A stretch of DNA of 64,000 nucleotides from Brevundimonas halotolerans (GTDB lineage: Bacteria; Pseudomonadota; Alphaproteobacteria; Caulobacterales; Caulobacteraceae), in assembly GCF_003730275.1 (NCBI RefSeq), contig NZ_QTTA01000016.1:1-64000 (forward strand), read 5' to 3'. Positions within the stretch are counted from its first letter, which is position 1. Every line of letters begins with the position of its first letter. Below the pieces are notes generated by a model. That model did no database searches, was not told where the DNA came from, and saw only the letters and a program-made list of their open reading frames with translations. Below, piece after piece: positions 37,778 to 39,793 of the stretch. A program made the translations under genes and the position numbers.

Positions 37778-38326
37778 ATGCACCTCTATCCCGACGAGCG
37801 CCTGGCGCTGTTCATCGATGGCTCAAACCTTCACGCCGCGGCCCGGTCGCTGAGTTTCGATCTGGACTTCAAGGCCATGCTGGACGACGTGCGCGAACGA
37901 TCGCGTTTCGTCCGCGCCTACTACTACACCGCCGTGGTCGAGGGGGAGGAATTCTCACCCGTGCGTCCGCTGGTGGACTGGCTGGGCTACAATGGCTTCT
38001 CCACCGTGACCAAACCGGTCCGGCGCTTTACCGATGCCTCGGGCCATGTCCGCATGAAGGGCAATATGGATGTCGAGATCGCCGTCGACATGATGCAGAT
38101 GGCCCCTCGGCTCGACCACGCCGTGCTGTTCTCGGGCGATGGCGACTTCCGCCGTCTCGTGCAGGCGGTTCAGGCGGAGGGCTGCCGGGTGTCGGTGGTC
38201 TCGACGCTCAAAACCCAGCCCCCGCACATCGCCGACGAACTGCGCCGTCAGGCTGACGACTTCGTCGAGCTGGCCGACCTCAAGACTCTGTACGGCCGCC
38301 CCCGCACGGTCCGCGAAGACGCATGA
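37778..38326 (+). CDS. NYN-domain (LabA/DUF88-like) putative ribonuclease
   Basis: 182 residues from ATG 37778. PIN-like NYN fold: LFIDGSNLHAAARSL near residue 12 and VLFSGDGDFRRLVQA near 120 hold the conserved acidic residues, with MDVEIAVDMM between them. Such proteins are predicted metal-dependent nucleases acting on RNA; the physiological role is unknown. Overlaps the downstream uracil-DNA glycosylase gene by ATGA. Confidence 0.88.
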   Translation: MHLYPDERLALFIDGSNLHAAARSLSFDLDFKAMLDDVRERSRFVRAYYYTAVVEGEEFSPVRPLVDWLGYNGFSTVTKPVRRFTDASGHVRMKGNMDVEIAVDMMQMAPRLDHAVLFSGDGDFRRLVQAVQAEGCRVSVVSTLKTQPPHIADELRRQADDFVELADLKTLYGRPRTVREDA

Positions 38327-38970
38327 CGACGCCTGCTCCGGTCGCCGAGCCGCCCGCCGACTGTCCACTCTGCCCCCGGCTGGTGGCCTATCGCGCCGAG
38401 AATGCGCGGCGCGAACCCGACTGGTTCAATGGCGCCGCACCTTCGTTCGGCGACACGCAGGCCCGGCTGCTGGTGGCGGGCCTCGCCCCTGGTCGCACCG
38501 GGGCCAACCGCACGGGTCGACCCTTCACCGGCGATCACGCCGGCTGGCTGCTATATCAGACGCTGATCGAGACCGGCTTTGCGCGCGGCACCTATGACGC
38601 CCGGCCCGATGACGGGCTGGAACTGCTCGACTGCATGATTACCAATGCCGTCCGCTGCGCCCCGCCCGGCAACAAACCCCTGCCGGCCGAAGAGGCGACC
38701 TGTCGGCCCTTCCTGACCGCCCGCCTTCAGACCCTGCCGCAGCTGAAGGTGATCGTCACCCTGGGCGATGTCTCGCGCCGCAATGTGCTGAAGGCGCTGG
38801 GCAAGCCTGCCTCGGCCATGGCGCCGGGGCATGGGTCCGAGGCCCGGGTCGGCCCCTACGTCCTGCTGAACAGCTATCACTGCTCCCGGTTGAACACGAA
38901 TACAGGGCGGCTCACGCCCCTGATGTTCCGGGAGATTTTCGAGCGGGCTCGCATCCTCATCGAAATGTGA
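38323..38970 (+). CDS. Uracil-DNA glycosylase, family 5 (UdgB-type)
   Basis: DNA repair enzyme that excises uracil and related bases. 215 residues. Iron-sulfur ligands are Cys14 and Cys17 (CPLC), Cys112 and Cys127; the active-site region LAPGRTGANRTGRPFTGDHA and C-terminal HCSRLNTNTGRLT are features of the 4Fe-4S family 5 enzymes rather than Ung. Translationally coupled to the NYN gene (ATGA). A 26-base imperfect dyad follows the stop directly. Confidence 0.9.
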   Translation: MTTPAPVAEPPADCPLCPRLVAYRAENARREPDWFNGAAPSFGDTQARLLVAGLAPGRTGANRTGRPFTGDHAGWLLYQTLIETGFARGTYDARPDDGLELLDCMITNAVRCAPPGNKPLPAEEATCRPFLTARLQTLPQLKVIVTLGDVSRRNVLKALGKPASAMAPGHGSEARVGPYVLLNSYHCSRLNTNTGRLTPLMFREIFERARILIEM

Positions 38971-38974
38971 TCGA

Positions 38975-39000
38975 ACATTGTTCGCCTGGCAGGCGAATGT
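38975..39000 (+). other. Imperfect inverted repeat after the uracil-DNA glycosylase gene
   Basis: ACAT plus TCGCCT (38975-38978 and 38982-38987, with a 3-base bulge) matches AGGCGAATGT at 38991-39000 in reverse. It starts 5 bases after the stop codon. No T-run follows, so a poor intrinsic terminator; a protein site is also possible. Confidence 0.4.
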
Positions 39001-39051
39001 GGCGGGCCGGACACATCCTTTTCCCCTCGCACGTGTAGACTAACTTTCGCG

Positions 39052-39077
39052 GGAACATCTCCGCGAGAGCCCGCGTT
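39052..39077 (+). promoter_or_regulatory. Putative sigma-EcfG (general stress) promoter
   Basis: GGAAC at 39052-39056, exactly 17 bases, then CGTT at 39074-39077: the full consensus of alphaproteobacterial general-stress sigma factors (EcfG; SigT in Caulobacter). Transcription would start about 39084, just before AGGAGG (39087-39092) and the ATG at 39098, so the leader is very short. Confidence 0.65.
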
Positions 39078-39097
39078 TCGGCCCACAGGAGGCTGTC

Positions 39098-39286
39098 ATG
39101 CGTACAAACACTCACTTCTTTTCCCGCGGCGAACGAAAAGCCGCTCTCTGGGCGGTTGTCGCGGCTGTCGCGCTGTCCGCAGCCGGCTTTGCCTGGGACT
39201 GGGCCCAGGGGCCGTCGCTGGGCCTGTATGAGCGTATGGGCCAGACCCAACTGGTCGGCGTCATCGAGGCGCAGCCTCTGGGCTAA
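39098..39286 (+). CDS. Small membrane protein of unknown function
   Basis: 62 residues, not recognised. A basic head (MRTNTHFFSRGERKAA) is followed by one transmembrane helix (about 17-36) and a short tail with Trp and Gly. The ribosome-binding site AGGAGG is perfect and 5 bases from the ATG, which makes this a real gene despite its size. The promoter just upstream is of the EcfG stress type, so induction in stationary phase or osmotic/oxidative stress is the prediction. Convergent with smpB; 3 bases separate the two ends. Confidence 0.75.
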   Translation: MRTNTHFFSRGERKAALWAVVAAVALSAAGFAWDWAQGPSLGLYERMGQTQLVGVIEAQPLG

Positions 39287-39289
39287 GGC

Positions 39290-39793
39290 TCAGCCCTTGT
39301 CGCGCAGCAGGCGGGCCTTGTCGCGCTGCCAGTCGCGTTTGGCGGAGGTTTCGCGCTTATCGTGCAGCTTCTTGCCCTTGGCCAGCGCCAGCTCCACCTT
39401 CGCCTTGCCCGATTCGTTCAGATACAGCTTGAGTGGGATCAGCGTCTGGCCGTCCTTCTGCACAGCCCCGATCATGCGGTCGATCTGGCGGCGATGCAGC
39501 AGCAGCTTTCGCGGGCGCCGCGGTTCGTGGTTGAACCGGTTGGCCTGGGCATAGGGCGGAATGTCGGCATTGATCAGCACGATCTCGCGCCCTTCGATGG
39601 CGGCATAACTTTCAGCGATATTGGCCCGCCCGGCCCTTAGCGCCTTGATCTCGGTGCCGACCAGGATGATGCCGGCCTCGACCGGCGCGTCCAGAAAATA
39701 GTCGAAGCGCGCGCGCCGGTTCTCGGCGATGATCTTCGGCTCATACTTCTTCTTGTCCGACTGAGGACGCCTTTGGGCGGGTGCTTGCGCCAT
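39290..39793 (-). CDS. smpB: SsrA-binding protein SmpB
   Basis: Binds tmRNA and delivers it to stalled ribosomes for trans-translation. 167 residues: [40 protein letters not shown] and a basic C-terminal tail [22 protein letters not shown] 39793; its start overlaps the dapA stop by one base. In Caulobacter relatives tmRNA is a two-piece molecule; I found no ssrA in this window. Confidence 0.96.

Follow-up and report, generated by a model that had tools for sequence, protein, structure and literature searches.

Does a 62-codon open reading frame lying behind GGAAC-N17-CGTT in Brevundimonas halotolerans represent a genuine gene of the general stress response, or a short frame that merely follows a chance match? 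Within the 64,000-nt stretch of DNA analysed here (hereafter the window), the forward strand carries a candidate sigma-EcfG-type promoter, with its -35 element GGAAC at 39052–39056 and, after a 17-nt spacer, its -10 element CGTT at 39074–39077. These are followed by a Shine-Dalgarno sequence AGGAGG (39087–39092, read from the sequence), 5 nt upstream of the ATG, and by the coding sequence of a 62-residue membrane protein (39098–39286), which runs from an ATG at 39098 to a stop codon ending at 39286. The flanking genes are a member of the uracil-DNA glycosylase superfamily upstream (38323–38970, forward strand, PF03167) and the convergent smpB downstream (39290–39793, reverse strand, PF01668), with 3 nt between the small ORF and smpB. 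An earlier, sequence-only reading had presented GGAAC-N17-CGTT, AGGAGG and the 62-codon ORF as a compact stress-induced unit; every part sits where it had been placed, and with only 20 nt from CGTT to ATG, the leader would be near-minimal, as it had suggested.

Taken alone, the motif is insufficient to justify a stress-gene claim. The window has a single GGAAC-N15..19-CGTT where 1.89 matches would be expected, and GGAAC-N15..18-CGTT occurs 57 times genome-wide against 68 for the reversed pattern; these counts are not above chance, and genome-wide counting is therefore useless as evidence by itself. They favour a reading in which the motif is fortuitous and the ORF, if expressed at all, depends on some other signal. 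The loci of homologous genes argue against it. We assembled 75 such loci, window included (the first 55 through tblastn, 20 later ones through a profile), and read the 120 nt before each start codon. A strict promoter, defined as GGAAC-N16/17-CGTT, was present in 68 of the 75, starting 46–72 nt 5' of the start codon, and the remaining seven departed from it by one mismatch. The first 55 loci comprised 48 strict promoters and the seven with a mismatch, and all 20 loci found later were strict, whereas a single match was obtained from 1814 other 120-nt stretches used as controls (both strands, first 55 loci). Such conservation makes the promoter match more than chance, and it is the outcome of the very test, conservation upstream of orthologues, by which the sequence-only reading had proposed to be judged. 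Because the loci are related, their counts cannot be treated as independent; when the proteins were clustered greedily at 60% identity, 22 of the resulting 26 clusters had at least one strict promoter.

The conservation is concentrated in the two core elements. Across 42 non-identical upstream regions of the N16 class, each anchored in the alignment at its best match (no more than one mismatch allowed), GGAAC reached 1.84–2.0 bits per column and CGTT 1.72, 2.0, 2.0 and 2.0 bits, whereas the spacer columns stayed below 1 bit except the last, and the spacers of the 68 strict promoters represented 57 distinct sequences. The description of the window promoter as 'full consensus' thus holds for both cores, GGAAC and CGTT, and fails for the spacer, which is N17 here and N16 in most homologues (58 of 68 strict promoters, the other 10 being N17). 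A ribosome-site core (GGAG, GAGG or AGGA) also lay close to the start codon in 74 of the 75 loci. Mismatches consisted of TGTT in G130 and G057, GGAGC in G098, and GCAAC in G089, G017, G081 and G123; judging from this substitution, EcfG control may have been lost or changed in the latter four. GCAAC with an N17 spacer is common to four homologues (upstream regions L010, L012, L013 and L029).

The distribution of the gene offered a further view of the unit. Among 131 genomes of the genus, own genome included, the protein was recovered in 55 by tblastn and in 74 by the profile search; no profile match was found in the other 57, which indicates that the gene is dispensable. Extending the profile search to 299 genomes of the family yielded 43 hits, namely 35 from the genus, one from another genus (G138) and seven false ones, while an order-wide search of 398 genomes gave 25 hits, of which 24 belonged to the genus and one to G568 (E 5e-4). 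Support from sequence for the G138 copy is modest (E 7.8e-5); when its protein served as the query, G086, which belongs to the same genus as the window, was recovered at E 6.8e-4. Hits in G206, G241 and G178 were rejected as pieces of one transporter-like frame, which we take to be ABC-transporter-like, as were those in G157, G250 and G142, corresponding to the N-terminus of a transporter frame presumably of the MFS type. A hit in G297 (a frame without resemblance) and a match of the G138 protein in G134 (out of frame within another gene) were also discarded. A search of viral contigs found no relative. Judged by these searches, the gene is nearly confined to Brevundimonas.

Among the 57 genus members without a profile match, 56 retained smpB, and 30 of these smpB-bearing genomes were inspected around that gene. 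In none of the 30 gene-less loci did the 420 nt past the smpB stop contain G[GC]AAC-N15..18-CGTT in the orientation pointing to smpB; the strict motif appeared anywhere in these ~3.4-kb loci in only two, both times outside that region. Promoter and ORF are therefore missing together. A glycosylase gene was identified near smpB in 20 of the 30 loci and not found in 10, and in 18 of the 30 the coding ends of glycosylase and smpB lay 10–36 nt apart, stop codons included. In G006, a genome without the small gene, the smpB match (G006:C5:3533-4021) contains one in-frame TGA. With the strict promoter present in 68 of 75 gene-bearing loci, in all those found later, and missing with the ORF in the 30 gene-less loci inspected, a fortuitous match is extremely improbable.

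The proximity of smpB raises another possibility, in which the promoter mainly produces an RNA antisense to smpB that damps trans-translation under stress, the peptide being secondary. Of the 56 loci with a measured distance, 50 have the stop codons of the two genes within 0–30 nt of each other, and a terminator-like site, looked for around the two stops, was not found, both of which would suit such read-through. Against this stand the strong amino-acid constraint on the ORF, described below, and the persistence of promoter and ORF at loci with no smpB next to them (G007 and G138), so that we regard a mainly antisense role as very unlikely. By tblastn, both neighbours were detected at 53 of the 75 loci, glycosylase only at 12, smpB only at nine, and neither at one (G138); 11 of the 12 glycosylase-only loci span just 121–594 nt downstream, and smpB may lie beyond. 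In the G007 locus (L018), which extends 1491 nt downstream, a different convergent ORF replaces smpB and the promoter is strict. Nine loci had no glycosylase in the 584–1500 nt upstream examined, and eight of them carried a strict promoter, L007 having one mismatch; the promoter of G138, in another genus and with neither neighbour found, was strict. As read from these loci, the unit of promoter and ORF persists when its neighbours change. A scan of the locus against Rfam at E <=1 returned no match.

The ORF is coding and constrained at the protein level. Ten pairwise comparisons among the five closest sequences gave dN/dS values of 0.07–0.27, and in every pair third codon positions carried more than their share of the changes. 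Protein length was 60–71 aa across the 75 loci, and every homologue (75/75) combined a hydropathy peak of at least 1.77 with more K/R residues before the span than after it. The motif F-S/T-x-x-E was found in 74 of the 75 proteins. Towards the C-terminus, 71 of them have [EDAQ]A[QR]P, and neither A58 nor P60 varies among the 28 rows of alignment A3; in the window protein, the C-terminal motif reads GVIEAQP (codons 54–60, 39257–39277, forward strand) and is predicted to be periplasmic. AlphaFold2 models of six sequences placed a helix at residues 10–36 (39125–39205, forward strand), coinciding with the membrane span predicted from hydropathy, with a mean pLDDT of 90–91 for residues 11–30. The models also drew a second helix in the tail at residues 41–58, with a mean pLDDT of ~50, and this modelled helix is not trusted. 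From hydropathy and charge we infer an N-in/C-out topology. The earlier description of a one-helix membrane protein is thus borne out by the single predicted span and by the protein-coding constraint on the ORF.

Compared with known families, the window protein reached at best 13.9 bits against Pfam, for a cut-off of 31.6, and had no match in NCBIfam. When 28 members were compared with both collections, no family matched more than two of them at E <=1, and the best single match (LBF_2804_fam, E 3.6e-4) concerned one member of the 28. With fewer than ~75 residues and one predicted helix, the protein has the size and the predicted span of the descriptive class of stress-induced single-pass small membrane proteins; the family is new and the kind of protein ordinary. 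Nor was it described in titles or abstract openings among the matches listed in a search of mainly open-access literature.

The same architecture could be read in two other ways. A positive N-terminus, then a hydrophobic helix and a conserved motif beyond it, would also suit a cleaved signal peptide releasing a secreted peptide of ~25 residues; no conserved A-x-A was visible by eye in alignment A3, however, and the modelled helix is 27 residues long, which makes this product unlikely. Alternatively, the size and the single helix recall a membrane-active toxin or growth brake, roles that small hydrophobic proteins linked to stress can have, and YohP of E. coli lowers the membrane potential when made, according to the accessible part of PMC12719787. 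That protein is, in the same portion of the source, also small, membrane-bound and stress-linked, but it has 27 residues and comes from another organism, and it is likened to ours by description, not homology. Conserved polar ends would, in our judgement, be unexpected for simple membrane damage, and a toxin is accordingly a highly improbable product.

Upstream of the promoter, many loci (e.g. L018, L022, L032) have in common a second element, TGTKGYTCNCNNGNCACRCGAATC, which includes a GANTC site and lies about 30 nt 5' of GGAAC, the distance being exactly 30 nt in 46 of the 63 measured. Of the 75 upstream regions, 64 match at least 15 of its 20 specified positions, compared with 4 of the 2286 control stretches, a count that is flattered because the pattern was derived from the same sequences; one of the 30 gene-less loci reached 15 positions. 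Three of the 64, namely the window together with two close relatives, have their match at another place (122 nt 5' of the ATG), and the match in L088 overlaps the promoter itself. In the window, a candidate degenerate counterpart, TGTGGCGGGCCGGACACA (38998–39015, forward strand), was placed by eye and is uncertain, and a genome search allowing up to three mismatches gave no TGTKGYTCNCNNGNCACRCGAATC match at this locus in G000, the window's genome, or in G072. GANTC itself occurs between -120 and -51 in 60 of 75 loci against 173 of 2149 controls. The element reaches 15 positions in eight of the nine glycosylase-less loci, L007 falling below, and this persistence without the glycosylase speaks for its belonging to the small gene. 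Searched with up to three mismatches in 13 whole genomes, it gave 16 matches, 11 at the locus and five elsewhere, against seven for the reversed control; copies elsewhere are not above the control, save three at one orthologous place. The latter lies between two divergent genes, which we take to be ntrZ-like and DUF3576-like, at G000:C4:73848-73871 (L166), G104:C1:227507-227530 (L167) and G012:C40:8618-8641 (L168). As a candidate for the second element, the ChvI motif TTGC-N3-GCAA, in the form given in the accessible text of PMC9731502, did not fit by eye. GANTC is the CcrM site in the part of PMC4287350 available to us. The gene might then be an integration point, where an EcfG promoter and a GANTC (CcrM-type) element would join stress to the cell cycle or another regulator, with the periplasmic A-Q/R-P tail docking on an envelope machine; we consider this extended scheme unlikely.

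Control by sigma-EcfG would draw on machinery that the genome encodes. EcfG, NepR and PhyR are all present in G000, where a single NepR match was obtained; an ECF sigma factor gene overlaps nepR, phyR is divergent, and a pair of GGAAC-N16-CGTT sites is directed at nepR-ecfG and phyR. After phyR, the segment L031:2687-2840 (G000:C24) contains GGAAC-N16-CATT and then a C-rich sequence resembling a hairpin, possibly a homologue of the sRNA GsrN by its sequence features; gsrN homologues typically lie near the general stress response (GSR) locus in Caulobacteraceae, as stated in the accessible part of PMC5869019. The same portion of that source allows GGAAC and CGTT a spacing of 15–17 nt, and Caulobacter sigma-T/EcfG promoters are written GGAAC-N16-CGTT in the portion of PMC4287350 consulted. 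The window promoter has the same -35 and -10 elements and falls in the same spacing range, but differs in the N17 spacer of its clade, and EcfG dependence in Brevundimonas is a prediction from sequence. Three sequence traits expected of members of the EcfG/SigT regulon were found, namely elements spaced by 15–17 nt, conservation upstream of homologues, and a genome encoding EcfG, NepR and PhyR; together with the coding constraint and the single helix, they support the reading of this ORF as a general-stress-response gene.

Thirty-one strict N16/N17 sites of G000 (29 loci) lie outside the window and the GSR locus, and their downstream ORFs were assigned by a rough rule. Three sites had no ORF, and 22 ORFs were scanned, five implausible-looking ORFs and L151 being left out. 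Families over the cut-off include DUF1328, DUF883_C, glycine-zipper, OmpA, AhpC/TSA and DUF4168, as well as MliC, BrkB, PAS, Crp-type HTH and DAGK_cat, while seven of the 22 ORFs had no family match. By the same rough rule, many strict sites fall inside other long frames, so some of them are chance matches. Small ORFs with a hydrophobic stretch follow strict sites at L153:698-868, L137:704-925 and L143:379-615; the first belongs to DUF1328 and the other two had no Pfam match. The DUF1328 protein, encoded behind a strict GGAAC-N17-CGTT in the same genome, is likewise tiny and hydrophobic with an EcfG-type site. The protein of the window gives no match to DUF1328, however, and has one span with longer polar ends, whereas the DUF1328 protein, of 57 residues, is mostly hydrophobic along its length.

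In the established pathway, PhyR activated by stress takes NepR off sigma-EcfG. EcfG-RNA polymerase would then initiate from 39052–39077 under stress, producing an mRNA whose leader is short and whose ribosome site is strong. The protein would cross the inner membrane once as a helix, its short, positively charged N-terminus (F-S/T-x-x-E) on the cytoplasmic side and its tail of ~25 residues, which ends in G-V-x-x-A-Q/R-P, on the periplasmic side. Binding is its likeliest mode of action: the two conserved ends might engage an envelope protein or complex and modulate it under stress, a role also proposed for other stress-induced single-helix proteins; this last step is put forward tentatively, by analogy, and we hold it somewhat less probable than not. 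That promoter and ORF form a sigma-EcfG gene unit is, on comparative sequence evidence, very probable, and the explanation as a whole, a single-gene general-stress unit encoding an inner-membrane microprotein, appears likely. The sequence-only reading was very probably right on EcfG control, and its promoter guess has been settled by conservation despite a motif at chance level. Very likely a real, undescribed stress-response gene, the locus gives Brevundimonas a well-supported and testable stress-response microprotein, and it might be used to report on the general stress response within the genus.
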